Source: Amyelois transitella
Lineage: Eukaryota > Arthropoda > Insecta > Lepidoptera > Pyralidae
DNA length: 64,000 nt
NCBI RefSeq assembly: GCF_032362555.1
Contig: NC_083507.1
Location: 8,745,001-8,809,000, forward strand
Reading direction: 5' to 3'
Both the position numbers and the translations under genes were made by a program. The notes under the pieces were generated by a model. The model saw only the letters and a list, made by a program, of their open reading frames with translations. It did not search any database and had not been told where the DNA came from. Shown one piece after another: positions 6,001-59,778 of the stretch. Numbering within the stretch: position 1 is the stretch's first letter; each line of letters starts with the position of its first letter.

Positions 6001-9000
6001 ATATCTTCTTTGAGCATTCCATGTAGGAAATACCAAAAATAATGGCATTACACCCGTTACACTTCGTTTCCATAATTTAAATTATTATAAAACTTACGGC
6101 GCACGGTTCGCACGTCAAGCGCTCACGACAGCAGCGACAGTCAGAAATAATTTAATAAGATACTTTTACAGTAATTTAGTTGTACTTTAAGAAACAATAT
6201 TAATTTATTTGCCTATATAGAGCATAATTTATGTTAAACTAGAACTTATCCTTGTTTAATTGTTGTGTGTAAATACTATCCAATTTGTGCAAAATAGATA
6301 AAGTGCCGTGTGGCTCCCGGCACCAATACAAAAAAGAATAGGACCACTCCATATCTTTCCCATGGATGTCGTAAAATGCGACTAAAGGATAGGCTTACAA
6401 ACTTGGGATTCTGTTTTAGGCGATGGGCTAGCAACCTGTCACTAGTTGAATCTCAATTCTATTGTTGAGCCAAATAGCTGTGCGGTGCCATTCAGTCTTT
6501 TCAAGACTGTTGGCTCTGTCTACCCCGCAGGGGATATAGACGTGACGATATGTATGTATGTAGATATTAGGCAATTAAAATGTAATTGAGATAATGATTA
6601 TTTATTGTGATTATTCAAAGAACCACCCTATAAATAAATTATTCGGGCAAAGTCCATTAGATAGCTATGAGGAATCTATAAGCTATTAAGATGTACTTAT
6701 AAACGAGATGTCACAAAATTATCGACCGTTTTTGCGCATAACCTGTTGTTTATATCTAAAGACTAAATGTGTGATAAATTGGTTCTCAGTCATATTCTAT
6801 AATGAAATAATAGTAGGTTTTTTATTTGAATTAATTTCTTAAGGTAAATAGCAAATGCTGAATGTAGGGTACCTATATTATAAGCTCAACCCTAGACCCT
6901 CTCATTCGGAGTGCCCCGTGACTTCCACTTTCCATATTTCTTACGTAATGCATTGCTTTATCGATATTTATCAACATGCGCGCAAAATTTGATTATATGT
7001 AAGTAGATAGTCACCCACAGTAGTAGTTGAGAATAATGCAGTCCAAAAATGCAGTACTGTAAAGAGCTAATTTGGTTATCATTTATAATGCGGAGTAGGT
7101 CAATTTGTTTTGCTATCTTATTAACCTAGATAATAATTAGATAAAGTATGCAATTTATCAACAACATTTTGATCAACACTCCTAGAATTAAAAACAATTT
7201 AAGTACTAAGTGGGCATCTGTTTTTAAATTATGAATTGTAAGCTATTTTAAATCTTTGTGTAAATAAATTTAATTAAATCCACATTATAAATCGAACACT
7301 TCATTACACCTTTACGGTTGGATACATTTTTATTTTTTCATTAAACAAATAAAGAAAATAAGAATATTATACTATGAAAATTAAGCAGAGCATGTAACAG
7401 TTACAACAAAAAATAATAAAACGGTCCATACCTCCATAACCACTTTGATAGGCTGTTGGCCGTGGAAGGCGAGGTAGTATATCGGCAGCTTCTGAAAGTC
7501 ATCAGCGTATTTTGCAAAGTCCTGGAGGTTTGTCTCCAGCGGGACCCCCGCGAACTGCTGCAGCATGGTGCGCGCCAGCCGCGAGTTCCGGATCTCGAAA
7601 CTGCCCCAGAGAGTGTTAACCTGCGATAATAATGTATATTTAAAGGGAAATAAACAATTTTGATCGACCCTGCTCAGTGCTCTCCCTGGAGACAAACAAG
7701 CGTAGGTTCAAGTTTCAGTGTGGGGTGTTTGTCTTATTAAGGCCACTTAAAGCTTAGCATAGAATATGTTATAGGTAAGTTATATTAAAGGTAGCTTTAC
7801 GAATTGCACAGAGGAAGGTACATAACTAAAATGTGCCTTGTGCTTGTGCTCACAGCACATCTTCTGTCCCAACTTCTCAAGTAACATAGCAACACATTAT
7901 AAATAAGAAGTTAGTTTATGCTTTATCTTATTAAAATTTTGTACATTAACTATACAAATTTAGCGGGTGCAATGATTCGGCTCGACCGCCACCAAAGGGA
8001 AAATCTTCCGCCAGGCTGGGTGTTATGCCTGGGGAGCTGCGGCTCCGACCGATGTGACCGTCGGTACTTACCCCTTGTTGAGCAAGGTCCAAAGACATCT
8101 CAGCACAGAGGGTGGTCTTCCCGCAGCCGGTGGGTCCCGTGAGGACGGTCAGCTCGCCCCGACGATGCCCGCCCAGCAATCGGGTAAGAGCTGGGAACCT
8201 TCGCCATTTTAGTCCGCGCACCTTTAAATGTATCACTTCACTTTACACATCTTCAGTGGAAAACGTAATTCAACGAACTTGATGACCTTGCTTACTTATC
8301 GTGTAGAATTCAGATTAGTTGGGCAAAACAAATTGGATGTATTGCAAAGAATATTTGTATTTTTTAACCCCGTTTTGGATGGCTGAACTACTGGGATTTT
8401 TCTTGTAATAAATTAATCTAGTAAGAACACTGGGAATTTGGATGCCACTAGACTTGCCAGTGAAACAAATTTGTCAACAACCCTACTATTTCGTAACGTA
8501 CTTTCGCCAAAGATAGTTTAGTTTAACCAAATGGACATCTGTGTTTACAAATAATGCTCTTTGGGTTTTGAAAATACAAGGATGGGGTGGGAAATGGGCT
8601 GAAGGTTGAAAAATTCTTAAGAACAAGTAAACTCTTTACAAGTAACACTTTGCTGACCTTGTCAATATTAGTGAGTTCAGCATACACGTCATCTCTAAGG
8701 GCAGCGAATGTAGTGATTGAGCGGTGAGCCGCGGGCTTCGCCTCCGATACCAATGTTTTCAAAGAGAGGTCTGCCATGGCAGCCTCTGTCGCGGTTACTA
8801 GTCCATCTGTGGGCCTAAATTTACAACACTTTCAACTGTAAATAATATAATAAACATAATAATTAATTCTGTTGAAATGTATGTTTCAAATCTAATCGAA
8901 CAAATTGAATATATAAAAAAAAGTTATGACCAAAAAAATTGGTTATACTCACTACATAAATGTAATACTTAGTATAACAGTTTGCTAGCTTATTTCTTAT

Positions 9001-19300: not shown

Positions 19301-22300
19301 AGTTTGATTATAAGAAGGTACTATCGATTTGTGTCACCTTCTGGTCGTCCTGGTGTCGGAGGCAGGTGAGCACGAGCGACAGCAGCGGCTCGTTGGCGAG
19401 GCGGACGGCGCTGCCGCCGCAGCCGCAGCCGCCGCTGCAGTTGCTGCTGACGCCACGTTTGCCGCCTCCGCCGCCGCCGCTGGACCTGGGAATAATACTC
19501 GAATGATGAAACTCAAGCGAAAGCGCAAAGGAAATGTGAGCGTGTCCGTTACTATACGGACCGAGAGTGGTCTCAATCTATGTGAGTAAACACATAAGCG
19601 CAACATTTAGCGTTCGAAAGCCTAACCAGTATATATGACAGTATGAGCAAAAATGACCTGAGTTTTTTTTGTAAAATACTGGCGTATAATTGTACTACGT
19701 GATAAACGTTTGTATGTAGTAGTTTGTAAGTGTATATAATTCAAATAATAATAACCCTTTATAACTGGGACTCTGATGACTCTTGCAGTCTCGATGGGAT
19801 CCGCTGCCGCCGCCGCTGCCGCTCGAGCAGCTGCCGCTACAGCCCGCGCCCCAACCGCTCTCCAATATCTACATTGTCAAAGAAAACAATAGATATGAGA
19901 TATAATAAAAATCATAATTAATATTGGTAGATACATTTGTATGTTATAAATTTTTAAAGTTTACGTAATATATGACAATATTAGTCAATATTAGTACGTG
20001 GCATCGAGTCCGCAGCAAATAAGGGATTTTATATTAGCAAACACACTACAGGGCTTTAAAGCATGTTATATATTCTATACCAATATAAGTAACTTTGTTT
20101 GTTTGAAGGGCAAATTTTCGGAAATAATGGACGATCATGAAAATTCTTTCATCGACGATAAAAAAGTACATTATCTGCAGGTGTTGTGTCTACCATGGGC
20201 GAAGTCGTGGCGGGGCGCTAGTGTGAGAAAAAAAAGGATTAATAATAATATTCTGCCAAACATACTTGTCCAGCTTGTTTCAGAACTCTTCCTTGAACTG
20301 CGGGTGGAAGCTTGGCGACCAGTGGCGCCACCAACCACACCGATTCGGGCCATTTACTTGTGCTCACTACACCGCGATCTGTGCCCATCCTGTAACATAA
20401 ACAGTGCATTATAATTAACAAGTACAGGATGATATTTGGTACATTGGTATCCTTAAATACTATTAAGTATAGTAAGGTATGGTTTTCAAAGTATGTTACT
20501 TTGGCCCACAGAAGATATTGTACTGATAATACATACGTTAACTGATTAGCTAGCGCCACAGTGTGCAGTGTGGCGACATCTCTACGCCACTCGTCACAAC
20601 ATCCAATCTCACAACAACTGTCAATCATCGCGAAGAAATTGACGCGCTCAACCAATAGCAGCGAAGAACCCAAATCGCGATTTCAGAGATTTCATGGATT
20701 GGAGCTATATATACAACCTCCGACACAACATCGTCGGAGCCGCGGTTCCCCAGGCATAACACCTAGCCTGGCGGAAGATCTTCCCTTTGGTGGCGGTCGA
20801 GCCGAATCATCGCTCCCGCTACATTGGTGACCCCGACGTGATTGGAAGCAACCTTCTCCATCATCATCAACTCCAATCCTCAGCATCACTCCTCACTCTG
20901 CAAGCAGTCTCACAGCAAGCCAGCAACTGGGTATCGCAGCAGGTCCTCCATCGCAGCCGACTCACCGAGCTTCCTGGTCCTGTCTCCACCCGCATTCACT
21001 CTCATCGACTTCAGCGACCGACGCATCTACCGCAGCCCACGCCTGGATCTCTTCGACGGCCGCTCTTCTCTCCAGCGTGGCAGCTCTGCACGATTTCTCT
21101 CGGCGCCAACAAGTCGACTTCGCTCTCTACTGTCTCGACTCACCGCAGACTACGAGCAACGCAACGGCTCACTCCTGACTCACTAGGACTTCGAGCAACT
21201 TCCGACTCACTGGAAGACAACTGGCACTTGCAAGCTACAACTGAAGCACAGATTGCACAGCAAGATCAAGACTTCAGACCTCCGGTCTTGGGGGGGAGTA
21301 TTGTGGCGACATCTCTACGCCACTCGTCACAACATCCAATCTCACAACAACTGTCAATCATCGCGAAGAAATTGACGCGCTCAACCAATAGCAGCGAAGA
21401 ACCCAAATCGCGATTTCAGAGATTTCATGGATTGGAGCTATATATACAACCTCCGACACAACATCGTCGGAGCCGCGGTTCCCCAGGCATAACACCTAGC
21501 CTGGCGGAAGATCTTCCCTTTGGTGGCGGTCGAGCCGAATCATCGCTCCCGCTACATGCAGCAAACTCAGTTCTGAAGAGACGTTCGGGAACTGCTTAAA
21601 CATTAGCTGCAAGTCTAACCACTACATTTAGACAAACCATTGTCCTACATTATGTAGACACTCACCTGTCTTTATCGGGTGGCGGCGGGGCAGGCTGCTG
21701 GAACACGTTGATGACTGCTCGCGCCACGGTGTCCAGCCAGCCGCTCAGTTCTGACGAGCCGTTCGGGAATTGTTTGAACATTAGCTGTAAGTCCAACCAT
21801 GACATCCGGAGAGACCATTGCTCCAGATTCTGTAAAAGACGACGAATTATAAAGACTTGTAGAATGTCTAACCATTTATTAATTTAGACTTTATTTTGCA
21901 TCTGAATTATGGTGGAATTTATTTTGATGTTTGATTTTATAATGGCCGAAATGTTAAGACTATGTTACACTGCATAGTCTTACCAATCATGATTACAAAA
22001 GTTACCTCTAATAATCGTGTTATCATAGTCTTCTGGTCCAGATCGGGATGAGTATGGCTCGCTGAGTCAGGATAGCAAATCATATGCAGTAACCTGTAAG
22101 AATATTAACATATTACTAATGAAATGACACTGTATTAACATACATAAAATTTATAAGTATAGTCGGGGCAATCACCTTGCCTTATTTGAACTGGTGAGAA
22201 GAACATATTAACAAATAAAAATAGGGTTCATCTGCTCAAACTAATCACAGATTGGTTGACGCGACGAATCCAGGAGTGAAGTGTGGAATCCAAGACAATG

Positions 22301-25300: not shown

Positions 25301-28300
25301 GTCTTGTAATGACAGCATTCTAGAAAGATCGGGTATTGTTTTTACTGTACCCGCCTGTGCCGTATACAGAGTTTATAATGGCCTTACCCGCAGATAGCAA
25401 GTCAGCCTAGCATTATCAGGGGAAGGTTATCATGTGTTTACAAGTGTGCACAGACCTGGTTGTGGCGTGTCGAGAGTTTTAAACAGTCTCAACAGTAGAT
25501 GACAAGTCAGCCTGGCTCCGGTATCTGGAGACGGGGCATTGGCTGGGTTCCCGTTGAGACCGGCGCCCCCGAACGCTTTCACCAGCGAAGGCAGTGCGGC
25601 GTGTCGCACGAAGTCCTCCAGTGAGAAGCAGTGGCGAGCTGGAATTATATTACCATTAATTGGAAAAAAAAATTATTGTTAAATGTGTTGATAATCACTA
25701 CATAGTATAAAACAAAGTCGCTATTTTAGTCTGTTTGTCTGTATGCTTAAATCTTTAAAATTACGCAACGGATTTTGATGCGGTTTTTTGTAACAGGTAG
25801 AGTGATTCAAGAGGAAGGTTTTTATGTATAATAACATTTATAATTTTGCACCCGTGCGAAGACGGGGCGGGTCGCTAGTTGTTTATATGTTGACGGAAAT
25901 AAATGAATATTATTTTATTTTTAGACCACACTGAAGGAAATTGGGTTACTTCTGCTAACTAATCCTACTTTTTTACTAGAGTGTACATGTGCGAATATTA
26001 CATTCGTTCATATTATAGTAGACGGTATGCTCTAACGGTCGAGAGACCTGCACATTTTCACAACTGAATGAGCAACAGTGATCCCAGCTAGATTTTCTTT
26101 TTTAGCTGTATCACTAAAGTCAGACTGCAGTTGTTCCCTACCATCCGGAGGTCCCGGGTTCGAATCCCGGTCATGGCATGATGAGAAAAAAACTTTTTCT
26201 GATTGGCCTGGGTCTTGGATGTTTATCTATATAAGTATTTATTACAAAAATATAGTTTCGTTGAGTTAGTATCTCCTAACACAAGTCACGAACTTACTTC
26301 GAGGCTAACTCAATCAGTGTAATTTGTCCCGTATATATTTATATATCATCCCATTGCTAGATCCTAGTTATAATGACGACACTTACAAGTATTCAATTAA
26401 AGACGCTGGGCCATCATAAGCTGCAGCGTGGAGTACAAGGTTCACGGCTAGAACTTATTACTTGAAAATTAAAAGAAACAAAAGACACTCACCTACGAGT
26501 ATACAAGTGAAGACCGCGAGCGCGTCATGAGCGGCCGCGTCGTGCAGATCGCGGTGGTGCAGCAGGTCCGGGTAGAAGGGCGGCGGCGCGGCGTGCGGCG
26601 CGGCGGGGTAGTACTGCGCGCCGCACAGCGCCACCAGCGCCCCGAGCCATTCCGCCGCTAAGCCACTACACCACGCGGTCATCTCCGCGCATAGGACGCC
26701 TAGTTCGTTCACCCTGTAGGTATTATGTGTCTTTGAAATGCTGAACGTGGCCTTTCAGTATTTTTCGGGACGAAAAACTTGTCGGCTCTGTATACCCCGT
26801 AAGGGATAAAGACTTGATTTACCTTAAAAAAATTAAGGCACAGGACCGCAAAGTAAAGTAATAAAGGCGTTTCTTACTTAGGCCTTCTGGTGATGGACTA
26901 GACAGTTGTGAATATATAATTCCTTGGCTTTATGGCTAAATAAAGATAGATTTGATTCGTGTAGCACATTTAACTAAATATATGTAACCACTATCAAACT
27001 AAGTTCCCCTCAAAGACGTGAGGCTACAGTGTAATTTCTTGATTATCTCCAGAATCAAAATTAGACCGTAACGTAATATAGATTAACATGAAAGATTGAT
27101 TAGACAACTCACCGATCATTATCGACCTCCCTGCAAACAGCCAGCATGGCCGAGCACACGAAGCTGTACCTGTTCGCCGGCGACTCGGCCACCTGGCGAG
27201 CCCACGCTATTTCAATTTTACCTGCAAGTGACACACGGCTTGTGACGGCTGATACATTGCGCTGTAGCCGGCCTCAAAAAAACTATATCCGGACTAGCTT
27301 GTCACTAGTCTAATCAGATATTTTGACTGTTAAATTGATGGAAAGAGACAAGAGACAGATAAGGCCAAAAAAACATAAGTTTACATAGGTATAACACTGA
27401 CACAACAAACGACACACAAGAAGCGAAATGATAGGCTTACATGTTGTATTGATTCCACTTGGGGTAGGATAAGGTGGGTAATTAAAATGTAACACAAACA
27501 TGCAGAACGGAAAGTGATTTGTTAATTTTGAAGTACAGTCAACATACTGGTCGAAAATAAATAATAATTTGCCAATCCAACTGGACAATAAAAAGACCAA
27601 CAAAACACATTGAAATTGAAGAGAGGGGTGTGTGAATGAAAATCTATGACGTTATGTTACTTGTTAGTTTAATAGTGCGTTCTCAATACGCATGTTTTAG
27701 CAATGGGAAGGAGAAACTCATGTCTGTTTGAGGCCGGCCTTTGCCTCGTTAATACTTTTACATACCCTTGCGCGGGTTCGTAAAGAACTCGCTTAGAAAT
27801 TGTGGATTGTAGACGTAGTTGGAGGGCGTCGGCTGTAGTGACGAGTAGAGAGCTTGTCTGAAAACAACAAAACAAACGCGTTATATTAGTGATTTGCTTT
27901 TGTGTGATATATTAAATTATTTATTATTGTACTCTATTGAACGGGATATTAGGCTTCGGAAAACATAATGTGAAATCGGCAATAAATATTGATTTTTTGA
28001 GGTTGTTTATTTTTCCTACTATGTACTATATATTGTTACTGTGTAAATTTCTTTAGAATAAAGATACTACAAGAAAAGAAATATTTGCACCCAGGCAAAA
28101 TTTCTCTCATCTTTTCGTGTTCCCGTTTACACATTCCGACGATCAGGCCGCCGATCGTGGTTTAACATTACACTACATCAAAAAAATCACATACATACTG
28201 TGGTCATCTGAATCCAGTTACCAGAATATTTAACCTCATCACTCACTTGATTTTCGGGTAAGCATTGGCGAAGGTGTCAGCGTGCGGCGCGTGACAGAGA

Positions 28301-31300
28301 TGCGCGGCCGCCTTGTACAGGTCGTGCAGCTGGGCCAGCACGCAGCGCTCGGCCGAGCCGCAGTCGCCGGGGTTCACCACACACTTCACCAGCCGGCACA
28401 GTTGCTCGAACACTGCTGACGTTTGCTCTACGCACACTGTGGATATTCCAAGGATGTTAAACACATGACTGATTTTAAAACACAGATTAATTGCTTATTA
28501 TTTTGTAGTTAACTTTTTTATTGCTTAAAAATCATTTTCACACACACACACACACACATATGATCACGTCTATATCTCTAGCGGGGTAGACAGAGCCACC
28601 AGTCTTGAAGACTGATAGGCCACGCTTTGGCTTAGTGATTGAATTGAGATTCAAATAGTAGTGACAGGTTGCTAGCCCATCGCCTAAAAGAGGAATCCCA
28701 AGTTTATAAGCCTATCCCTTAGTCGCCTTTTACGACATCCGTGGGAAAGATGTGGAATGAAAATCATTTTCATTACAGCGAATTCTGATAACATTGAGTT
28801 TAAGCTTAATTACATACACACGCAGAGTGAAACGCCTTTTGAAATGTAATTAAACTAATATAATAAAATAGTTTTGTAAAAGAGTGCTATAACTTACACA
28901 AAAGGCAAGAGTGATATCTCCGGAGAGCGCCCACAGTGTAAAGAGCCAAGGCCGAAGTGTAAGCTCGCGGGGCCGCTAACCCACTGCTGGGGGCTCCGCG
29001 CGATGTCAACGCACTCTCCACTTCCGAGAGCTCTTTGAGGATCTGTAAAACAAATAAAATCTTAAATGGAAAATCTTCTACAGTAAGAAATTTCATGTTT
29101 AGAATTAGTTCAAAAAGATTTATTCTTTTGTTCTGAGAATTTTGGAAAACCATCTTTTAGTGCTCACCTACACCGTCTACTCAACGTCTATTTTAAAATT
29201 GCTTGGCATAATTTTTAAACACCTAGTATTAACACAAGTTTCTTCGACATCGGCCGTAGGTATGGTATACTAGCGGCCCGCCCCGGCTTCGCACGGGTGG
29301 ACATATTTTTGTGTTTTATATTTTGAAATAAACAAAGAGTAAAAACAAATTTATGCCTATGTCACTTTTGAAGGTCTATTCTATATCTGTGCCAAATTTT
29401 ATCAAAATCGGACCAGTAGTTTTTAAGTTTATTCCACACAAACATACAAAAATACAAATCTTTCCTCTTTATTATTAGTGTGGATGTGGATAAGTGACCT
29501 GTATACAAGTTTCAATGAGGCCGTGCACGTTGAGCGCTATCTCCATGAGGTCCAGCGCGAAGGCCACGTGCTCGGGCTGCGGCAGGTACGTGATGGCGCC
29601 CGCCGCGTACGCCGCCAGCGACTCGCACACGGCGCCGCCCACCGCCCACGACACGGCGCCTTGCTCGTACATTGACATCGCCTGTATCACAAGTGAAAGG
29701 TTAGACATAGTTCACACCTACCAAAGATTGAAAAAATATGTATAAATATTTAGAAAATAAAAGTACAAGTACAACTGTAACAATCACAACTAGATACATT
29801 TCAATTTGCCCGGTAATATAGCCCGAGAGTGTACACTGTAAACTATTGGAGTTAGTAGTATCGTTATGCATAAATGGTTGAACAAAATCACCCTGACGTT
29901 TGTCTCGGTTGCGGGTCTCTCCTGTTGGTATGAATTGAAACGTTATCATCGAAAGCGATTGAAAGAAGTATTTGTTGGTTTATTTACATTGAGGGAGTTG
30001 GAATAAAATGTTCACCTGAAATGTCTGTGTTGGTATGACCATGATACGACTTGAAACGTTACGTTGACCGAAAACGATTGAAAGAAATATTTGTTGGTTT
30101 ATTTACATTGAAGGAGTAAGAAAAAAAAGTTTACCTGAAATTTCTGCGTTACTGCTTCAAAATTGAATTCACTTCGTGAATGCTTCTTTATTTTACCACC
30201 TTCAGCTACATCGATAGAGAATTTCTTTGAAAATAGCTTGCAGATTTCTGAAAAAGAAATAATTACATACATACATACATACATACCGTCACGTCTATAT
30301 CCCTTGCGGGGTAGACAGAGCCAACAGTCTTGAAAAGACTGAATGGCCACGTTCAGCTATTTGGCTTAACGATAGAATTGAGATTCAACTAGTGACAGGT
30401 TGCTAGCCCATCGCCTAAAAAAGAATCCCAAGTTTGTAAGCCTATCCCTTAGTCGCCTTTTACGACATCCATGGGAAAGAGATGGAGTGGTCCTATTCTT
30501 TTTTGTATTGGTGCCGGGAACCACACGGCACTAGAAATAATTATATTAATACAATCATTTGCCAAAGGTTTAGTTAATGTGGGAAATGAAAAAAAATAGC
30601 CGTACAATGTAACGTATAACGTAGTTACGTTATACGTTACATTGTAGTATAATATTAAGTTAAATATTATAGTAAATTTTTGTGTTTTAATAATGTGATG
30701 ATGAAATGGCCGCGCACGTATTTAGCTCAGTTATAAAGCTGCGAACGCGATTTCTTCGACGGCAGAGCTGAATAGAACTACAAGAAGTTTTCTGATCTTT
30801 ATATAGGTCAAACCTTTAATTTTAAGTCTGTTCGGGCTCGGCGGGCGGCAGCGGGAAGTGCATGGTGTAGTGGTGGTGGCAGTCAGTATACAGACCTTTG
30901 GTCATCTTCTTGACGGCATGCTTGGCGTCGTCCCGCTGGCGGCCCACGCCGTACAGCAGGATGTGCCGCTGGTTGGCGTCGTGCGGCGTGTGCTCGGGCT
31001 CGGCGGGCGGCAGCGGGAAGTGCATGGTGTAGTGGTGGTGGCAGTCAGTATACAGACCTTTGGTCATCTTCTTGACGGCATGCTTGGCGTCGTCCCGCTG
31101 GCGGCCCACGCCGTACAGCAGGATGTGCCGCTGGTTGGCGTCGTGCGGCGTGTGCTCGGGCTCGGCGGGCGGCAGCGGGAAGTGCATGGTGTAGTGGTGG
31201 TGGCAGTCAGTATACAGACCTTTGGTCATCTTCTTGACGGCATGCTTGGCGTCGTCCCGCTGGCGGCCCACGCCGTACAGCAGGATGTGCCGCTGGTTGG

Positions 31301-34300
31301 CGTCGTGCGGCGTGTGCTCGGGCTCGGCGGGCGGCAGCGGGAAGTGCATGGTGTAGTGGTGGTGGCAGTCAGTATACAGACCTTTGGTCATCTTCTTGAC
31401 GGCATGCTTGGCGTCGTCCCGCTGGCGGCCCACGCCGTACAGCAGGATGTGCCGCTGGTTGGCGTCGTGCGGCGTGTGCTCGGGCTCGGCGGGCGGCAGC
31501 GGGAAGTGCATGGTGTAGTGGTGGTGGCAGTCAGTATACAGACCTTTGGTCATCTTCTTGACGGCATGCTTGGCGTCGTCCCGCTGGCGGCCCACGCCGT
31601 ACAGCAGGATGTGCCGCTGGTTGGCGTCGTGCGGCGTGTGCTCGGGCTCGGCGGGCGGCAGCGGGAAGTGCATGGTGTAGTGGTGGTGGCAGTCAGTATA
31701 CAGACCTTTGGTCATCTTCTTGACGGCATGCTTGGCGTCGTCCCGCTGGCGGCCCACGCCGTACAGCAGGATGTGCCGCTGGTTGGCGTCGTGCGGCGTG
31801 TGCTCGGGCTCGGCGGGCGGCAGCGGGAAGTGCATGGTGTAGTGGTGGTGGCAGTCAGTATACAGACCTTTGGTCATCTTCTTGACGGCATGCTTGGCGT
31901 CGTCCCGCTGGCGGCCCACGCCGTACAGCAGGATGTGCCGCTGGTTGGCGTCGTGCGGCGTGTGCTCGGGCTCGGCGGGCGGCAGCGGGAAGTGCATGGT
32001 GTAGTGGTGGTGGCAGTCAGTATACAGACCTTTGGTCATCTTCTTGACGGCATGCTTGGCGTCGTCCCGCTGGCGGCCCACGCCGTACAGCAGGATGTGC
32101 CGCTGGTTGGCGTCGTGCGGCGTGTGCTCGGGCTCGGCGGGCGGCAGCGGGAAGTGCATGGTGTAGTGGTGGTGGCAGTCAGTATACAGACCTTTGGTCA
32201 TCTTCTTGACGGCATGCTTGGCGTCGTCCCGCTGGCGGCCCACGCCGTACAGCAGGATGTGCCGCTGGTTGGCGTCGTGCGGCGTGTGCTCGGGCTCGGC
32301 GGGCGGCAGCGGGAAGTGCATGGTGTAGTGGTGGTGGCAGTCAGTATACAGACCTTTGGTCATCTTCTTGACGGCATGCTTGGCGTCGTCCCGCTGGCGG
32401 CCCACGCCGTACAGCAGGATGTGCCGCTGGTTGGCGTCGTGCGGCGTGTGCTCGGGCTCGGCGGGCGGCAGCGGGAAGTGCATGGTGTAGTGGTGGTGGC
32501 AGTCAGTATACAGACCTTTGGTCATCTTCTTGACGGCATGCTTGGCGTCGTCCCGCTGGCGGCCCACGCCGTACAGCAGGATGTGCCGCTGGTTGGCGTC
32601 GTGCGGCGTGTGCTCGGGCTCGGCGGGCGGCAGCGGGAAGTGCATGGTGTAGTGGTGGTGGCAGTCAGTATACAGACCTTTGGTCATCTTCTTGACGGCA
32701 TGCTTGGCGTCGTCCCGCTGGCGGCCCACGCCGTACAGCAGGATGTGCCGCTGGTTGGCGTCGTGCGGCGTGTGCTCGGGCTCGGCGGGCGGCAGCGGGA
32801 AGTGCATGGTGTAGTGGTAGTGGCGGGACACCGCGCCCCCGCCGGCGGCGCCCGCCACCGCGCCCGCCGCGCCGGCCGCGTGCGGGGCGCCCACGCCGCT
32901 GGCGCTGGATGGGCCCGAACTTGTCGTTCGCATGCCTAGGTTTGTAACGAATCAAATAATATTGGGCCGAAAATAATGTGGAACAAAGATAACGGGGGCT
33001 ATGATGTTTGGATTGCAAATATCTATTAAAACATCGACATTTAAACGATCATAAAATTAAAGCGTTTTGAAATAAATATTTACTTAAATCTTTTTATGAA
33101 TACCTGGAAACTTACCAGTCATTGGTCCCATTCCCATGGACGGCATGCCCGGAATAGACATACCACTTGGTCCCATCATTGGCGAATTAACACTGTGAAA
33201 ATAAAAGAACTGGATTAATTAAACATTACTCCTCGTAATTACTAAAACTTAAGCAATATACAATATACACTCTGAAAGTGACACAAAATTAAAAAAAAAA
33301 TACTAGGTACTAATTTCGATATAAAAAATAAGATAAGATAAATGTGCCAATATGCCCGACATACGAAAATTTGCAAGTATAGTAGTAACTGATAATCTTG
33401 CTGGCAAAAGTTTTGTTCGATAATTTAAAGAACATACCTATGTGAAGGCTCGCCAGGGTCTTTGGGGCTGTCCGGGGCGTCCATGGAATTCTGCTGGTCT
33501 TCCTTGATATGTTGCAGAAGCTTATCTAAGTCGTCGTCGATCTTGGAATCGTCCAAATCCATACGAACATTTTCCTAAACAACAACACAGGTTTAGTAGT
33601 TTTAGACCTTTTATTAAATTATTTCAATTTAGTTCAAGGGCTATTAGTTAGGCTTATAAATATAAGATTCTTCTTGTAGGCGATGGGCTAGCAACCTGTC
33701 ACTATTTGAATCTCAATTCCATCATTAAGTCATACAGCTGAACGTGGCCTTTCAGTCTTTACGAACGAAGAATAAATAAGTATTTATTATTAAATATAGT
33801 ATCGTTGCGTAACTATCTCGTAACACAAATTTCGTACTTACTTCGAGGCTTACTCAATTTTTGTGATTTCTCCCGTAGGAATTTATTTATTTATTTAATT
33901 TATTTGCTATTTAGTTGTTACCTCCATCTTGGGCTTGAGGTCGATGCCCGCGAATATGTCGTCGTCCATGTTGTGGTTGGTGTTGGAGCTGTTGGCAGGT
34001 TGGGACACGCTGTGTGGCCCTCCTGTGGTTGATGTCGGCTCCGTTGGAGAAATCAAGTCACCTTGAAAAAAAAAAGACATTAAAAAACGCATTGTACAAT
34101 GTGCCTCAAAATGAAAAAAAAATTCCTCATCACAGACTAATGTATGTTGTATTGAACAACATATATTAGTGAGTGCTGTGATGCCATATAAGTATCAGGA
34201 GCTAGTGAGCTAACCCTCTGTAGAAAGGGTTATTTACAAATTCTTATTTCCTGTCTCTTTTTATCCTATCGGTTAACTTAGGAGAAAAAGATAGCGGGAA

Positions 34301-37300: not shown

Positions 37301-40300
37301 CAGCCCGACCACACCATCGCCGTTGGGCATTCCACGCAGATTACCTTTAATATGCATCAATATTAATTTTTCTATTTTCCTTCTTTGATTAATGAGACAC
37401 TTTAGGTTAAGTTTAAAGGATGTAGGCAACCTTCTTGGTGTGCGCCATAGCAGCGGTTGCCATGATGTTGTTTGTGAGATTTATGTCAAAATATTTTTTA
37501 TTGTGAAATAGATATTCTTAGTTTTACGTTGAATAATATAGACATTTTAAACTGATTATTTTCTCCTCTTTTCTCCTTCTATCTTCTGTAGGAATAAATA
37601 ACTTTTATAACTATACTTCCTACAAAGCTGAAGTATCTTTTTTTTATTATAGCGGTGCCGTGTGCCCAGCACTTAGAATAGGAGTACTCTTAATATTTCC
37701 CATGGATGTCGTAAAAGGCGACTTTCCAATAGGCTAATAAACTTCGGATTCTTTTTGTAGGCGATGGGCTAGCAACCTGTCACTATTTGAATCCCAATTC
37801 CATAATTAAGTCATACAGCTGAACATGGCCTTTCAGACTTTACAAGACTGTTGGCTTTGCCTTCCCCGCAAGGGATATAGACGTGACTCTATGAATGTAT
37901 AGCAGGAGCGATGATTCGGCTCGACCGCCACCAAAGGGAAGATCTTTAGGTGTTATGACGACGATGTTGAGTCGGAGGATATGTATAGCGGTAATTAAAT
38001 GAACACGAAAAGGTAAAGGTTGGCATGGTTACAGCTAAAAGATTTAACTGAAACTAAAAGAGACAAATTGCAACAGCAAATGGGACCAGTTGTTCTAGCT
38101 CACCTGCAGTATGGTTGCCAACTGAATGATAACATCTCTATGATACGGACAGTTCAAAATCTCCCCGAAGCCAATTTGGACAGGATTTAACGCTGCTGTT
38201 ATAACCGTGTTCACGGTTGGCTTTGTGTCTGTAGGGGGCGCCACATTCTCTTCTTTCACTTGAACGTCCATAGGCTGTTGGGGGTTAGGAGTTCCTAAGG
38301 GATTCGGTGTGCCAAGGTTTGGGTTAGGAGTTCCGAGAGAGTGGTTCGGATTTGGCGTCCCTTGGTTTTGGTCTGCCGGAGTGGCCGACCGCTTAATGTT
38401 AGCTATGTTCGGTTTTACGTCGCCGTTTGCCGTTTCTGGAGCAGGTGATAATGGAGCACCGTTGGTTTCTGCAAATAAGTTCGCTTTAATAGAATTTCTG
38501 GCAGTCACATACAAAAGTAGGTAATAACAATCATTATAAATTATGATCAATGATCAATCTTTGTCAAATTGGTTTTTCACTATTTCATTTTTCTCCATCT
38601 ACAAATGTGTAAACCAAAGTCTTAAACGATAACCACATGCTCTGGTCATACGAGAATGAATGAACTATTTTTTATAAATACATATATCCAAGATGAAACC
38701 AAATATTTTCTAATATTCTTCACAATCATGAAAACATTATAAAAAAGAACAATACCTCTTGTACCGTCAGCAGTTTTAGTGAACACCGCTGGCTGGTTCA
38801 ACGAGCGGAGAATGGTTTCAGAGAGCACAGAGCAAATGGCGGCGGCCTTCTTTGCGCACGTCGTGGCGAGGCGGCGAGACAGGCCCTCGCAGCAGACGAA
38901 CTCGCACATGTGTTGAAGGGCGAGTGGCAGGAACAACCTTGTGGTTTGAAGGACAATACATTTGTGAAAATCAAAAACCACGCAGCACTAGATAACTAAC
39001 ATCACAGACATCATTTGTTTAATAGAATAAATGGTTGGGATGATAAATTCACTAAATAACAGTGAAAAGAAGACTGCATGAAAATCTGATGCTTGGTTTA
39101 AATGAAGAAAGTTTAAGTGTGATATGCCATATGAAGTTGGAGGGATTTTTTATTTTAATAAATAATAAAATAAATTACAAGATTTTCAACGTAATTTAAC
39201 TTTTGTAGTTCGTCTTCGCTTTGATTCAAAGAAGTTACAAAGCGTCTTAAATCATTAACTGCTGATAATGCCTGGGCATGTGACAAAATCGGAGTTGACT
39301 CATCTTCTTGATCATTATCACTTTCAGCCTCTTCTTGTGTGTTATTCACATTCTTAATCAGTTCAGTCAGTCCGCTGGTCGCTGCCACAGAGGTAATATG
39401 TGTTGGCCGTTAGGGCGTATTAAACGGGATGACGAATCGTATTAAGCGTTAAAGAATGTATGAAAACATGTCTCAAGTTGCAGGGATTGATGCAAAATGG
39501 CGTATTATGCGAGAAATCGTATTAAGCGTGATCGTATTAAACGGGTTCTACTGTATGTAATTAGATTGGAATAAAATAATAGAACAACCAAGAAATACCT
39601 GAGAAGTCCATCATCTGGTGCCCTTTTGTCGAGTAACTCAATAATCCAAGTAAGGAAGTCTTGTCTGTCCAACAGTCCTTCGTCTAACATGTACTTTGCG
39701 AGGCGACAGCAGTAATTCCACAGTTTAAGAGCTTGTCTCCAATCAGTGCTTTCCGATTGCCCAGGGGTCGATGATCCCAGTGCTAGAGAATTGGGATTGA
39801 TTAGAAATAAATTATTAATTCACATAATTAATTATCAAATTGTATATCGTTAAATGCAACTAAGGGAGTGGCTAATAAACTTGGGATTCCTCTTGTACAT
39901 GAGATCTGAATTCTATTATTTAACCATACAGATGAATGTGGCCTTTCAGTCTTCAAGACTGTTAGCTCTGTCTACCCCATAAGGGATACAGATCTAAAGG
40001 TCCCTCATTCAGCACAGTTTTTTGAATAAATGTGGATGCACCTAATACTGTCTTCTTCTATTTAAATTAATCACTTGTACAAGTGCAAGTCCATGATAAA
40101 TAAATGTAAAGAAGGAATAAACTCCCGCGACTTTACTCTCACCTACGCAAGTGCCGCCTCAACTCTGCCAGGGTAGCTATGTCCCAAAGCACCCATAACA
40201 GTGGCTTGGGCAAAGTGGTGTGACCCGAGAATGATTGGAATAACTTTTTCCATATACATAGTTTGATTAGGTACCTACTTAAAAAATAAGAAAAGATTTA

Positions 40301-42979: not shown

Positions 42980-44508
42980 ATGCCACCAAAGAAACTGTAG
43001 CGGGAGCGATGATTCGGCTCGACCGCCACCAAAGGGAAGATCTTCCGCCAGGCTAGGTGTTATGCCTGGGGAACCGCGGCTCCGACGATGTTGTGTCGGA
43101 GGTTGTATATATAGCTCCAATCCGTGAAATCTCTGAAATCGCGTTCTAGATACTTCGCTGCTATTGGTTGAGCGCGTCAATTTCTTCGAGATGATTGACA
43201 GTAGTTGTTTGATTTGATGTTGCGGCGAGTGGCGTAGAGATGTCGCCACAGTACTCCCCCCCAAGACCGGAGGTCTGAAGTCTTGATCTTGCTGTGCAAT
43301 CTGTGCTTCAGTTGTAGCTTGCAAGTGCCAGTAGTCTTCCAGTGAGTCGGAAGTTGCTCGAAGTCCTAGTGAGTCAGGAGTGAGCTGTTGCGTTGCTCGT
43401 AGTCTGCGGTGAGTCGAGACAGTAGAGAGCGAAGTCGACTTGTTGGCGCCGGTAGATATCGTGCAGAGCTGCCACGCTGGAGAGTAGAGCGGCCGTCGAA
43501 GAGATCCAGGCGTGGGCTGCGGTAGATGCGTCGGTCGCTGAAGTCGATGAGAGTGAGTGCGGGTGGAGACAGGACCAGGAAGCTCGTTGAGTTGGCTGCG
43601 ATGGACCTGCTGCGATACCCAGTTGCTGGCTTGCTGTGAGACTGCTTGCAGAGTGAGGAGTGATGCTGAGGATTGGAGTGGATGATGATGGAGAAGGTTG
43701 CTTCCAATCACGTCGGGGTCACCAATGTAGCGGGAGCGATGATTCGGCTCGACCGCCACCAAAGGGAAGATCTTCCGCCAGGCTAGGTGTTATGCCTGGG
43801 GAACCGCGGCTCCGACGATGTTGTGTCGGAGGTTGTATATATAGCTCCAATCCGTGAAATCTCTGAAATCGCGTTCTAGATACTTCGCTGCTATTGGTTG
43901 AGCGCGTCAATTTCTTCGAGATGATTGACAGTAGTTGTTTGATTTGATGTTGCGGCGAGTGGCGTAGAGATGTCGCCACAAAACAATCAGAAAAGGGAAA
44001 GGCAGGTGGAAGTAGTAAAGGTGGTGGAGGTGGAAAATCAGGAGGAGATTCGAAAGGTTATGTCGCATTTAAATATAATTACAATCATATGACCCTTTTT
44101 AAGTTTTGGAATTGTTTAAAAATGGTACATTTGTACGGTATCTACATAAATGTAATGTGTTTTTCATGAAATATTATTTTGAATTTAGAATCAGCTGGAA
44201 AAGAAAAAAAAGGTGGGACAGCTGTCAAAGTCCGTCACATTTTGTGCGAGAAACAGTCAAAATGTTTGGAGGCGCTGGAAAAACTGAAAGCCGGACAAAA
44301 GTTTCCGGATGTAGCCGCCGCGTATAGCGAGGACAAGGCGAGGCAAGGTGGAGATCTCGGCTGGATGACCCGTGGGTCTATGGTGGGTCCATTCCAGGAT
44401 GCGGCATTCGCCTTGCCCATATCGTCAGTCACGAACCCTGTTTACACAGATCCACCTGTAAAAACTAAGTTTGGTTACCATATTATAATGGTAGAAGGCA
44501 AAAAATGA
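42980..44508 (+). pseudogene. PIN4: PIN4 (parvulin 14), reading frame broken by an LTR element in exon 1
   Basis: Peptidyl-prolyl cis-trans isomerase of the parvulin type. Exon 1 begins at 42980 (ATG CCA CCA AAG AAA C). It is cut after 16 nt by the element at 42996-43980, resumes at 43981 with a duplicated AAAC, and ends at the donor 44056. Exon 2 is 44189-44508. Around the insertion the two sides are in phase: before it MPPKK, after it a Lys/Gly/Ser-rich tail of the family type. Exon 2 gives [30 protein letters not shown], then a typical [10 protein letters not shown] end. With the insertion the frame reads MPPKKL and stops. No other in-frame ATG lies before the catalytic domain, so this haplotype looks null unless the element is removed from the RNA. 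Confidence 0.88.
42996..43980 (-). mobile_element. Miniature LTR retrotransposon (TRIM-like), copy 2, inside PIN4 exon 1
   Basis: Two 255-bp LTRs (42996-43250 and 43726-43980) that look identical, with a 475-bp internal region, the tRNA-Trp-type primer site on the minus strand next to 43725, and the polypurine tract near 43252-43270. It is flanked by a 4-bp duplication, AAAC (42992-42995 and 43981-43984). It is antisense to PIN4 and inverted relative to copy 1 at 20569-21556, to which it is very similar. No gag or pol domain is present; a long open frame spans it (43762-42974), as in copy 1, without recognisable domains. Confidence 0.93.
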
Positions 44509-45541: not shown

Positions 45542-46540
45542 ATGTGTGTCAGAATGGCGGGTGTACCTCACGGATTTTAATATCTGTTTTGGATTAAAAA
45601 CGTACCTGATGTGTACCTCAGTGTACCTATCCTAAAAATCTGTGTACCTTCTTCTATGTAAAGATTTTTAATAAAATAGGTACACCCGCGGTCCTGACGT
45701 CAGGACCGCGGGTGTACTTCTAGTTAGCTTATGTAGGTAAGTTAACTGTAATGTAGATTTGGTACCTCTTGTGTACCTGCAGAAACAAATATTAAATAAA
45801 TAAAAAATATTAAGGGTGCTGAGAAAATGTAAAAAAACATTTTTTTTCATGTTAAAATTTTCTTTTTCTTTTTTTTGTAACTGGCCAGTTATGATACATT
45901 CTGAACAAAACAGAAAAGTTGCACAATACAAATTATAATTAACATATATCAACAACAATATAGGTAAATGATCTAGTTCTAGTTCATTACTACAGTATAT
46001 ACTTTTATGTAGGTATCCTTCCGAGGCAAGCGATGGGAGTGTTATGACGATCTTCGTAATAATGTAAGAAAAAGCTAAATGTATGATTTCAGAATGTGAC
46101 CTTTATAGATTGAAATATTTTTTTGTAATATACATAAAATATATTTTGTGATTTAGGAATGTTACAATTCTGTACATAAATGTATAATCACATACAGACA
46201 GATACTAGAGTGATCCTATAAGAGTTCCTTTTTTTATTTTTATTTTTTTTTCATTTTCTCAGTACCCTTAATATTTTTTATTTATTTAATATTTGTTTCT
46301 GCAGGTACACAAGAGGTACTAAATCTACATATACAGTTAACTTACTTACATATGCTAACTAGAAGTACACCCGCGGTCCTGACGTCAGGACCGCGGGTGT
46401 ACCTATTTTATTAAAAATCTTTACATAGAAGGAGGTACACAGATTTTTAGGATAGGTACACTGAGGTACACATCAGGTAGGTTTTTAATCCAAAACAGAT
46501 ATTAAAATCCGTGAGGTACACCCGCCATTCTGACACACAT
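45542..46540. mobile_element. MITE with ~290-bp terminal inverted repeats and 8-bp target duplication
   Basis: The left arm (45542 to about 45835) and right arm (about 46248-46540) are near-perfect inverted copies starting ATGTGTGTCAGAATGG. The 8-bp direct repeat TGTCTATT flanks the element (45534-45541 and 46541-46548), which is a hAT-type footprint. There is no transposase. Each arm carries a 38-bp perfect palindrome (45680-45717 and 46365-46402) and several ggtacac motifs. The centre is AT-rich. Confidence 0.88.
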
Positions 46541-50500: not shown

Positions 50501-53500
50501 TATATGAGATTTTCTTTTTTATTTATGTATTTGCGACATTCTAAATAGTACTAGTTCGTAGTTACCAATTTTTATTAAACACTTAACTCTAGAAATGTAT
50601 TATTACGCGATGCCAACTACCTATGCAAATTCAATTAGCATTCTGTATTCAATTCACTGCTATTTCTGGGAATAGTGCAAAACTTGTAGATGGGTTTACA
50701 AGCTAAAAACCAAAGAGCGGGCCTAATTAATAAGATTTTTCTCAACTTTATTTAAATTCACTGTTATCAACACCTAGTACTTATTTGTCAGCTACGATAG
50801 TTCATGTATCTAAGAGCGGGCAGGTAAGTGAAATCAAAGCATGGGAATGAAATGAAAGCGATGAATAGCTTTCATGATTGTTATTGATAGAACCGTCAAT
50901 GAAATCGTAAAAACGTTGTTGTTGGGAAAACGGTAAATAGCTATTTATATGTTTAAGTTAGAGCAATATTAAACTGTGTATTCAATATTTTAATTATTCT
51001 CCTTCCTGAAAAATCTGGATCTTGGTAGAGTTTTTGTGCAACGTAACCAATTCTTATGAGTATATTACCAGTATGTATTATTACCAGTAATAAATAATAA
51101 AAAAAATTAATCGATACATATACAGGTGATGAATTTTCACGGATCGTCGTTATTTATAATTTGGTCGTAGTTCACATTATTTTATATAATTAGGATACTT
51201 AAATATACTTTAACAAAATGTACGTACGCCCGAACAGGGACTTGAACCCTGGACCCTTGGATTAAAAGTCCAATGCTCTACCGACTGAGCTATCCGGGCC
51301 GTATCGGAGCCGACCAAATTTTTATACTGTTACGATGAGGCAGAATGAATCGCTGTTAGTGAGTCATTCAAGTGAAAATAACTCGCACGGACAAAAAAGT
51401 CTTGAAAAAAAATCTTTTGTCAATTAACTACATTTGGTGTAGAAGTGTGAATAGGGTGATGCATGTTTTGGTAGATTAGACGTATTACTACGTTAAATTG
51501 ATTTAAAATGACTTTGCATATCGTTGTGAATAATCACTTTACAAGTTTCAATGTACTTACCGACTTACTTAATTATAAACTTAAATCCAGAAAAAACGGA
51601 AGTAGGTATTTTTATGTTTTTACATAGTTACAAGTACATCTGTGTTAGGTCGTCAATTAAGTAGGTATTAGTTCCACAAATTTACAAACTAAGGAATGTT
51701 GATTACGTAGGTACCCGATCTTATCAAAGCTATGTTAGGGAACGACCCATTTCCTCTCGGCACAGAACAGGTTAGAATCTTATCGCGAGAGAGACCGCGC
51801 CGATAAGCAAGTTTTTACACTTATTTACATAAATGACTTTATTTGACGTGATATTTGGCGGCAACGTTCACTCTGAGTCTAGTCTTAAGTTAGGAATCAA
51901 ACTTAAGACTAGACTCAGAGTGAACGAGCTTTTGTAATATGTGTTTGTTTTAAAATTGAGTAAGTAACTAGGTAGATTAGATATCGTCAAGTTGAAGCTT
52001 GGCCTTAATTCTTTATAATTTAAAACACACACATTGAATAAATTTTTATTATTAATATTTTAAAGAAAAATCCCATGCCTGTTGACGGTTGAAACTACTA
52101 CCTACGTAGGTACCGTTTTGAAAACCTTGACTTTATGACAATGCAATTTTCGTTTGTTGAATAAAATTGCGTTTAACCATTTAATGTCTGCAACATCTTT
52201 TGAAAATATAACAATAAAATTAAGGAAAATCGTTATTTTAAATAGTTTCTACAGATACGTATTTATTTTAGAGTTTAGTTGCTGGTGCTGAGTTTAAAGG
52301 GTTTAGGTAGAGTCGTATAAGTATTATCTAGAAATCTTAGCAAAACCAGCCTATTTGAACATGGCAAATCGTGCTTACATTTTTGTCTGACATTTTGGTA
52401 GTTTCTTGATTAATTAACTGACATATACCTACTAAGTAGTTGTCAAAAAATCAGTGGGTGTGTAATAGATTTGTAAATAACAAATGACATTCAGCTAAAT
52501 CCGTTGATAATTACCTACAGTTTTCAATCAACTTTGATTGACTAAATTTTGAGAAATTAAGTCAAGAACTCACTGTCAGCATATCTCTCATGGATGACTC
52601 TCTGCACGCATTGCGAAGGTACCGGGGGCTCCAGGATGCGTCCGTTGGGGAACTGCGCTTGCGCCGCTGCGACGCACGCTAACACCACCACTGTGTATAT
52701 ACTGTTCATCTGTAACAATATATTCACTTAAAATATAATATGATCAATTTGGTTTATTGTTAACTTTTGTACAGTTGTAGCATGTTCCTGAATATTTCAA
52801 CACTTAAAACAAGTACTTATAAGTTGTACCTAAGTGCTTTGCAAACAATAATTTCGATGTGATACAAACAATATACACACAAAGTTTCGTAAATTAAACC
52901 TCCCCTTATGCTAATGTAATTTAAAAGATAATGTTAAAGCTTATTTGAAAAGGCATCAGACATTTTTCTTTTATTTTTGCCAATTTTTGAATTTATGGCA
53001 CTGTCACAATGTTGCAGAAGGCTTTATTTAAAAACTTTATTGTGGTTTTCTTCCTTCGAGAATTAAAGAACCTGTTTTAAAAATTGTTAACATAATATAA
53101 CGTTCTCACTGCCGATCCTAAAAGGAAAATATTTCGCGAAAACTACCTACCAGCGCCATAGCGTCAACTGGCAGTTTGCCACACGAAAACAACACCGAAT
53201 CCTAAAGATTACTAAGAAGGTAGGTTTTGACTATTATAGAGAACCTAGCTTTTAGCGATTCCTTTGTATTATAGAGTCATTGCATAGTAAACCACTGCAA
53301 ATATAGATATATTTATACCTAGGTCACCTTATATTTTTGTAGTTAAAATAGTGCGTTGATTTTTAACCCGTATGGAGTGAGAACAAACTTATCGTTTAGG
53401 CACTGTACAAATTTACACTTGGGTAGTATGGAATGGTAGAGTTATTGTTTACAAATAAACTTTCCCTGGAATTATGTTTATGGGACCGGTTGAGGGCTTT

Positions 53501-57629: not shown

Positions 57630-59778
57630 ATGAATAATCTCAATATGTTTTGTTGTTTGAAGGGCTGTATCAATGGATTTAGCCTGACACCTAGTGTACC
57701 TATCCGTATCAAAGAAAATCCAGTGCAGCTGGATACCTTGCATATGGGTAATGTGATTTATTGATTTATTCTTTAAAACAGTTTCCTCATCTCTTTTTTT
57801 GTGTGCCCTGTATTCAAAATGTTATTTTTGAACAAGCAATTAGTTCTGAATAAAAAATTCAACCTAGATATTCTTTTGCACTAAACTATGCATGTTTACA
57901 CATCTGTTGAGCTACATAAACAGAACTTTTCATTATTGTCAAAAAGCGCTAACCTCACATGTGACCTCAAAGCTTTACAAATCAAAACTTCTTTTATAAG
58001 CTTTAAGTTACTGTGATGATTTAAAACAAGTCTCTGAATTTAATTTGAATAGGTCATGAAGTAGTGGTGGTGAAAGGAGGTCAAAGAGTGTGCGGGTCTG
58101 GTTGTGCGCTTGGGAATGCTCCTCTAGTCCAGAACAAATCATACTTTGAAGTGAAGCTACAACAGGGAGGTGTATGGGCCGTGGGGCTAGCTACAAGAGA
58201 CACAGATGTTAGCAAAGTTCATGGTAAGTACTCACCAATATATAAATTTCACACAATTTTACATTAATCATGTTTTCATACTTTCTGGGGTACGCAGAGC
58301 CAATAGACCTAAGACTTGAAAGACATGTTTAGCTTATGATAAAAAAGGAAAGAAGTACTGAACTAAATGTATGTTTCGCATAAAATTTTAATTGACTCAT
58401 GGTTGAAGAAGTTCCAAAATTAATATTCAGTAGCAGTATAGCAAGAATGGGTCATTGCTAGCACCTTAGCCGTGTTGTGTTGTCTGTAGGCCATATGATT
58501 CATAACAAGTGACATAATGTATATCTTTATACAGCTGCTTATTTGCAACACAATCCTTTTAAACCTTCGGGGAAATTGACACAGTCACCATTTGTGTAGA
58601 AGTTTTCCCAACTCAGAATTTAGAAGGTCGAAAATGAAATATTTAAATATCATGCTTATATAACAATCCAATTACAATCAAAGTTCCAAAAAACTCAAAT
58701 AAAAATGTGGATGCCATGGCCCCAAGGATAGCTGTGGAAGGTGCTTCTGAAAAACTCACAGATGAGAAAATGAGAATTTAAATGTTGATTCACTATGAAT
58801 TTGAATGATCATACCAAACAACATGTGCTTTTTTATTTTATATTTCTGTTGAAAATATGGAAAGGTGTAGTCCTATGCATCCCTCTGGGAAAGCTTTAAG
58901 AGTTTATGTATATTTTCTGATTTTAGTAATATCAAAAACTTCAGCTATCAAATATTATACATAATCTCTGGGCCAGTACAGAATAAAATTACTTGGATGC
59001 CTTGATGTTGTTAAGATTACAGGAGTAACTGATTGACACTTATCATCCTTGCAGTTCACTTGCAGTTAACGATGGCACCTTATTAGATAAAAATAAAAAA
59101 CTAAAATAAAACTATCTCAAAGCATTACTAAACCTTCCTAATACTTTTTCAAGGTGGTGTTGACAAAGAGTCATGGTGCTTAAACAGTGACGGTACTGTG
59201 CGACATGCAAATGTTGAGCTTTACCACCTCACACCAGCCCCGAGGGAATCTCCCACTGCAGATCTGTTAGTGTCCACGGGTTCTCCTATCCATGTGGAGA
59301 GTGAGAGGCCAGAGAGTGACAGTGTGAACACAGCAGCCATAATGCCAGTGGAAGGAGACACCATTGGAGTGGCCTATGACCATGTGGAACTGAATTTCTT
59401 TCTTAATGGAAAAAATATGGAGATACCCGTCAGAAATGTAAGGGGCACAGTTTATCCAGCGTTATATGGTAAGATATAAAATAAAATAGAGTCATCTGCC
59501 ATCACATATGTTAAATATCCACTGAAATATTTTCATACAATATTTAATATCTACATAAAAATTTGGGACTATTAATATACATATATTATCTAATTTGGGA
59601 ATACAAGCTGTAATTTAAAGTTGAATATTTTTTTATATGGTATTAATTTGTTTCAAAACCATGACTTTTTTAAATTGCAGTTGACGACGGCGCCATCTTA
59701 GATATAAACTTGGACAATTTCTTGTACCCACCTCCGAGCGGCTATGAGAAGATAATGGTGGAGCAATCTCTTCTCTAA
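57630..59778 (+). CDS. SPRYD7: SPRY domain-containing protein 7
   Basis: Small intracellular protein made almost wholly of one SPRY domain; its molecular role is not established. Exons 57630-57747, 58053-58223, 59154-59468, 59681-59778 give 233 residues, all introns in phase 1. N-terminal features are FCCLKGC and ENPVQLDTLHMGHEVVVVK. The SPRY core is CGSGCALGNAPLVQNKSYFE, GVWAVGLATRD and DTIGVAYDHVELNFFLNGK. The end is RGTVYPALYVDDGAILDI and PPPSGYEKIMVEQSLL. These match the vertebrate protein nearly end to end. Exon 3 carries an insert of about 35 residues (LTPAPRESPTADLLV to SVNTAAIMP) absent from the human protein as I remember it (about 196 residues). The start is the first ATG of the frame. 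Confidence 0.95.
58224..59153 (+). other. SPRYD7 intron 2
   Basis: 930 bp, AT-rich. A weak family A relic (tttctggggtacgcagagcc near 58280). No other feature. Confidence 0.55.

Follow-up and report, generated by a model that had tools for sequence, protein, structure and literature searches.

Tandem duplications that carry splice signals along with them are already known. In the potato RdRp gene, a segment duplicated over an intron-exon boundary gave rise to a new intron, for which the part of that report drawn on here offers both reads and RNA-Seq; it also cites an ATP2A2 experiment by Hellsten et al. as a case of the same kind (PMC4974935). Competition among neighboring donors for a single acceptor has its own literature. 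DOK7 intron 4 has two competing donors 11 nt apart; in minigenes where the downstream donor's sequence also took the upstream place, the upstream site was less strongly suppressed, an effect that the authors, in the section cited, put down to the stronger signal, and the same section describes a preference of SRSF1 for the intron-proximal donor and of hnRNP A1 for the distal one (PMC5585400). Together with the GYNGYN donors (PMC1779574, likewise cited in part), DOK7 intron 4 illustrates the arrangement of several donors before one acceptor.

We describe here a locus of Amyelois transitella at which these themes meet, found in a 64,000-nucleotide stretch of contig NC_083507.1 (hereafter, the window, meaning the whole stretch that was analysed). 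A 162-bp unit comprising the end of a MED12 exon and the start of the following intron occurs there in 12 identical head-to-tail copies (Table 1). The likeness to the potato gene lies in a tandem copy that contains splice signals, the potato copy altering what is exon; yet the potato duplication, as described in the part cited, has two copies with ten nucleotide differences and concerns the acceptor side (PMC4974935), whereas the MED12 array has 12 identical units, concerns the donor side, and is known here from DNA alone. As in DOK7 intron 4 (PMC5585400) and the GYNGYN donors (PMC1779574) there are several donors for one acceptor, but MED12 differs from what the cited portions describe in having 12 identical donors, spaced by 162 bp and all in frame. 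The array also resembles coding minisatellites or VNTRs, in that units of minisatellite size follow one another head to tail within a coding region; unlike in those, the MED12 unit includes a 5' splice site, the number of DNA copies need not equal the number of protein copies, and there is one sequence here. A literature search on MED12 duplication, Lepidoptera, exon-boundary repeats, coding minisatellites and duplicated donors, covering few subscription journals, yielded among the matches listed neither the MED12 array nor such a row of identical donors.

The array and its gene

The host gene is MED12, on the minus strand, spanning about 42.3 to 12.9 kb of the window in a rough gene model. 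The model comes from a home-made dynamic programme, with several missed exons read by eye and some small exons doubtful. Three spliced pieces were scanned against Pfam: one matched Med12-LCEWAV (PF12145; 164.7 bits against a cut-off of 23, E 4e-48), another matched Med12 (PF09497; 61.8 bits, cut-off 25), and the third gave no Pfam match up to E 1. The peptide of the exon bearing the array matches MED12 chain 8tq2_C, which we take to be human MED12, once, at residues 729-776 (E 6e-12). Splicing in a single unit gives a stop-free 340 aa from seven exons (the last of them ending 12 nt before its modelled donor), and this stretch aligns to the same chain at 589-642 and 729-891 (E 2e-34), crossing the junction behind the unit. 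With one unit spliced in, the protein is colinear with the chain through the array exon (residues 729-891). Since the LCEWAV match stops inside the unit, the unit is placed at the C-terminal edge of that domain. Searches with the 53-aa segment gave 23 pattern matches in viral contigs and 127 in prokaryote contigs, none of which was confirmed in either set, as is expected for an animal gene.

The exact period-162 run extends over 1987 bases, or 12.27 units, and when the 12 full units are cut in register they prove to be one distinct sequence. TRF places the array at 30832-32824 with a score of 3979, the next score being 140 among the 10 TRF rows listed for the window. The head-to-tail order and the unit size are those of a minisatellite or VNTR. 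The unit is rich in G+C (65%, vs 39% for the window and 36% for the intron following the array). Exceptional folding of the unit, whether as its cause or its function, was considered and rejected: 17 of 200 shuffled sequences folded as well for DNA (z -1.38) and 21 of 200 for RNA (z -1.30).

The minus frame is open across the whole array. Because 162 = 3 x 54, a frame without stops in one unit has none in any other, and the plus strand is likewise open, for 710 aa, across the same array; one frame in three is free of stops on each strand. With an open plus strand and a period that is a multiple of three, openness is therefore weak evidence of coding.

On the coding strand, each unit runs through the exon end ...KKMTK, coded ...ATGACCAAAG, continues with GTCTGTATACTGACTGC, and then meets the start of the next copy. 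It carries 17 bases behind the exon's donor, a count uncertain by a few bases because seam and flank are similar at the 5' edge of the array. There the two have GCCAC in common, followed by one mismatch and then exon sequence, which is compatible with a join at short homology. At the other end, a 43-base remainder sits behind the last donor and abuts AT-rich intron, and this partial 13th unit would be intronic. Since the last unit is partial, one simple duplication followed by whole-unit copying would not account for the 3' end, where a second breakpoint or a deletion would be needed.

Much of an initial annotation of this DNA is borne out by these results. It had named the gene MED12 and the segment conserved, as Pfam and the chain alignment confirm; it had counted 12 identical 162-bp copies, free of stops and with the reading frame kept, as the period run, the in-register comparison and the minus frame agree; and it had described the unit as covering the end of the exon and about 20 bp of intron, close to the 17 bases found. 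Its span for the array, 30833..32822, needs its ends moved by between one and a few bases. Its statement that the segment is single-copy in other animal MED12 proteins holds for chain 8tq2_C, the sole comparison made.

Table 1. Features of the array, its host gene and the surrounding window
Feature	Position in window	Strand	Details
Tandem array, 162-bp unit	30832-32818	-	12 full identical units + 43 bases
Twelve identical donors AAAG/GTCTGT (slash at exon end)	30896-32678	-	162 bp apart; last exon bases 32678, 32516, 32354, 32192, 32030, 31868, 31706, 31544, 31382, 31220, 31058, 30896
Stretch behind last donor	30832-30895	-	~17 bases from the start of the intron and ~47 bases of exon copy (partial 13th unit), bordering on unrelated intron
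Preceding MED12 exon	33116-33192	-
MED12 exon if first donor used	32678-32935	-	258 nt, one unit; acceptor ACAAACCTAG, donor AAAG/GTCTGT; in-frame joins on both sides
Same MED12 exon if last donor used	30896-32935	-	2040 nt, 12 units
Next MED12 exon	30135-30247	-	acceptor TTTCTTTTTCAG; joins in phase to AAAG
Inverted repeat in intron behind array	30603-30646		perfect, 21 bp, 2-bp loop
SINE-like dispersed repeat	30272-30532, 6302-6562, 28540-28759, 37675-37900		~220-260 bp, 80-95% alike
Short element, first copy	20569-21557	+	~985 bp
Short element, second copy	42996-43980	-	~985 bp
Inverted pair	45542-45837 / 46244-46540		297 bp, 97% alike
Peptidyl-prolyl isomerase exon, parvulin type	44173-44508	+	Pfam Rotamase_3, 76 bits
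Reading frame with weak SPRY match	59135-59479	+	24.5 bits, under cut-off 26.3
tRNA gene	51227-51299	-	Rfam, 74.4 bits

Twelve donors facing one acceptor

The next exon, behind its acceptor TTTCTTTTTCAG, joins AAAG in phase, and GTCTGT is therefore read as the start of the intron; the same GTCTGT is modelled as a donor also at 25456. Under donor and acceptor matrices taken from general knowledge, with no trained set behind them, the site scores 1.76 bits, the best of the five GTs in the unit (the others reach -2.2 or less) and within about the top 7% of the 1594 GTs in the gene. It is a weak donor by the same matrix, at 1.76 of a maximum of 8.79 bits, ranking approximately ninth lowest among the 44 donors of the rough model. 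All 12 donor choices are in frame and stop-free and give the expected 1 to 12 copies, and if no donor of the array is used, translation stops behind PPAEPEQT.

The initial annotation had the protein segment going from one to 12 copies. This does not follow, because a 5' splice site comes with each unit, and use of the first donor leaves a one-copy MED12. In the reading that we prefer, the end of the MED12 exon and the start of the following intron would have been duplicated in tandem, multiplying the authentic 5' splice site to 12. In the pre-mRNA, 12 equal donors would then compete for the single acceptor that precedes 30247. Splicing at donor 1 would remove units 2-12 as intron and yield normal MED12, and use of donors 2-12 would yield in-frame proteins with 2-12 copies. 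To a real and recent duplication of this kind, covering part of an exon and carrying its donor, with enough donor-1 splicing for normal MED12 and longer in-frame forms that are minor or variable, we give about an even chance; the presence of the array in the animal, the use of donor 1 and the minor share of the longer forms are inferred here. In its favour are the alignment of the one-unit product with human MED12 across the junction and the donor's rank as the best GT of its unit. Precedent is offered by the potato gene, where duplicating a splice boundary changed splicing (PMC4974935), and by the relieved suppression of the upstream donor in the DOK7 minigenes (PMC5585400).

The size of the exon and that of the intron pull in opposite directions. 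With donor 1 the exon would be 258 nt long and the intron 2430 nt; with donor 12 the lengths would be 2040 nt and 648 nt, respectively. In the rough model the remaining 44 exons measure approximately 8-332 nt; the 258-nt exon falls within this range, and 2040 nt would be about six times the longest of them, so exon size favours donor 1. The 44 introns of the model, the 648-nt one included, measure approximately 97-1730 nt; 2430 nt exceeds them all, so intron size favours donor 12. The length of this intron and the weakness of the donor both count against the preferred reading. So does the classic result that, where donors are identical, the proximal one tends to be chosen. The preference of SRSF1 for the intron-proximal donor weighs the same way, though hnRNP A1 prefers the distal one (PMC5585400).

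The array may accordingly be considered real but spliced mainly from its last, intron-proximal donor, in which case most MED12 would have 12 copies and would be 11 x 54 = 594 residues longer, the addition lying at the LCEWAV domain's C-terminal edge. The frame is open through all units, the 648-nt intron is the shortest on offer, the rough gene finder itself placed all 12 copies in one 2-kb exon, and SRSF1, in the section cited above, favours proximal donors (PMC5585400). Weighing against this are an exon that would be by far the largest of the modelled gene, a large insertion adjoining residues common with human MED12, and the weakness of an open frame as evidence when the plus strand is open too. 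We consider predominant use of the last donor unlikely.

We are similarly doubtful that the ladder of 12 equal donors gives a graded MED12 series of 1- to 12-copy forms whose proportions vary between tissues or alleles; if it did, nature would have provided a test of how position by itself sets the spliceosome's ranking of identical donors. Whatever the product, a real array would be a natural experiment on donor choice, its 12 donors, alike in local sequence, differing mainly in how far they stand from the acceptor and from the start of the exon. Repeat counts taken from a genome or from an automatic gene model need not equal protein copies when the unit carries a splice site.

A splice signal within the duplicated segment, AAAG/GTCTGT in 12 of 12 units, is also what intron gain by tandem duplication would call for. 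Such gain would produce internal introns of 162 nt, each from the GT of one unit to the AG of the next. Each unit has AAAG/GT, i.e. AGGT, so placed that the GT-to-AG stretch is 162 nt and keeps the frame; a branch-point-like CTGAC begins at intron base 10; and published cases exist, as in the portion of the potato report cited (PMC4974935). Of the eight AGs between successive donors, however, seven shift the frame and were rejected as acceptors of small internal introns, and the eighth, the frame-keeping AAAG directly before the next donor, is by eye without a pyrimidine tract. Moreover, the mature product would be that of another donor choice, with no new protein. Internal introns of this sort thus seem most improbable.

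Age and authenticity of the array

The preferred reading, of a real duplication with splicing from donor 1, has to be set against an artefact of assembly, polishing or library preparation, the animal itself having one or a few units. In favour of a real array, genuine MED12 exons flank the exact repeat in one contiguous sequence. Short-read assembly would normally collapse such an array and long reads would span it, which would speak against an artefact with either type of read. Pointing the other way, the 12 full units are all identical, the copy number is not an integer, with a partial unit next to unrelated intron, and the segment is one conserved with human MED12; the complete lack of differences between units and the unusual 3' end would fit an artefact too, and so count against a donor-carrying duplication.

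How much the identity of the units should weigh depends on their age. The silkworm mutation rate is given as 0.41e-8 per site per generation in the part of the source used (PMC10048334). At this rate 0.8 changes are expected over the 1987 bases per 100,000 generations, and, on the assumption of neutrality and no homogenisation, finding zero changes bounds the time since the units were last identical, at the 5% level, to at most about 368,000 generations. Zero differences therefore fit a real array up to that age at 4.1e-9 per site per generation. Unit identity is a matter of youth or homogenisation, and by itself no sign of artefact. The initial annotation had held an artefact to be the main alternative on the ground that the copies do not differ; the alternative stands, as a rather unlikely one that still deserves serious weight, and the age arithmetic makes identity a weaker argument for it.

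Other elements of the window

Between the array and the next exon, the intron contains a perfect inverted repeat, a possible site of replication trouble, and also, just behind the array, one copy of a SINE-like repeat that is dispersed elsewhere in the window (Table 1).

A short element occurs in two copies that are 96% alike, one of them inside MED12. In each copy the direct terminal repeats (255-256 bp) match one another at 100%, the ends of the element are TG...CA, and the first copy is flanked by the repeat TGCAG; the open frame tested in that copy gave no Pfam match. We presume this to be a TRIM-type LTR element.

The tRNA gene, far from the array, is the sole Rfam match at the gathering threshold. 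A reading frame toward the end of the window has a weak match to the SPRY domain. The two arms of an inverted pair lie about 400 bp apart. Just upstream of MED12, on the opposite strand, lies an exon of a parvulin-type peptidyl-prolyl isomerase.
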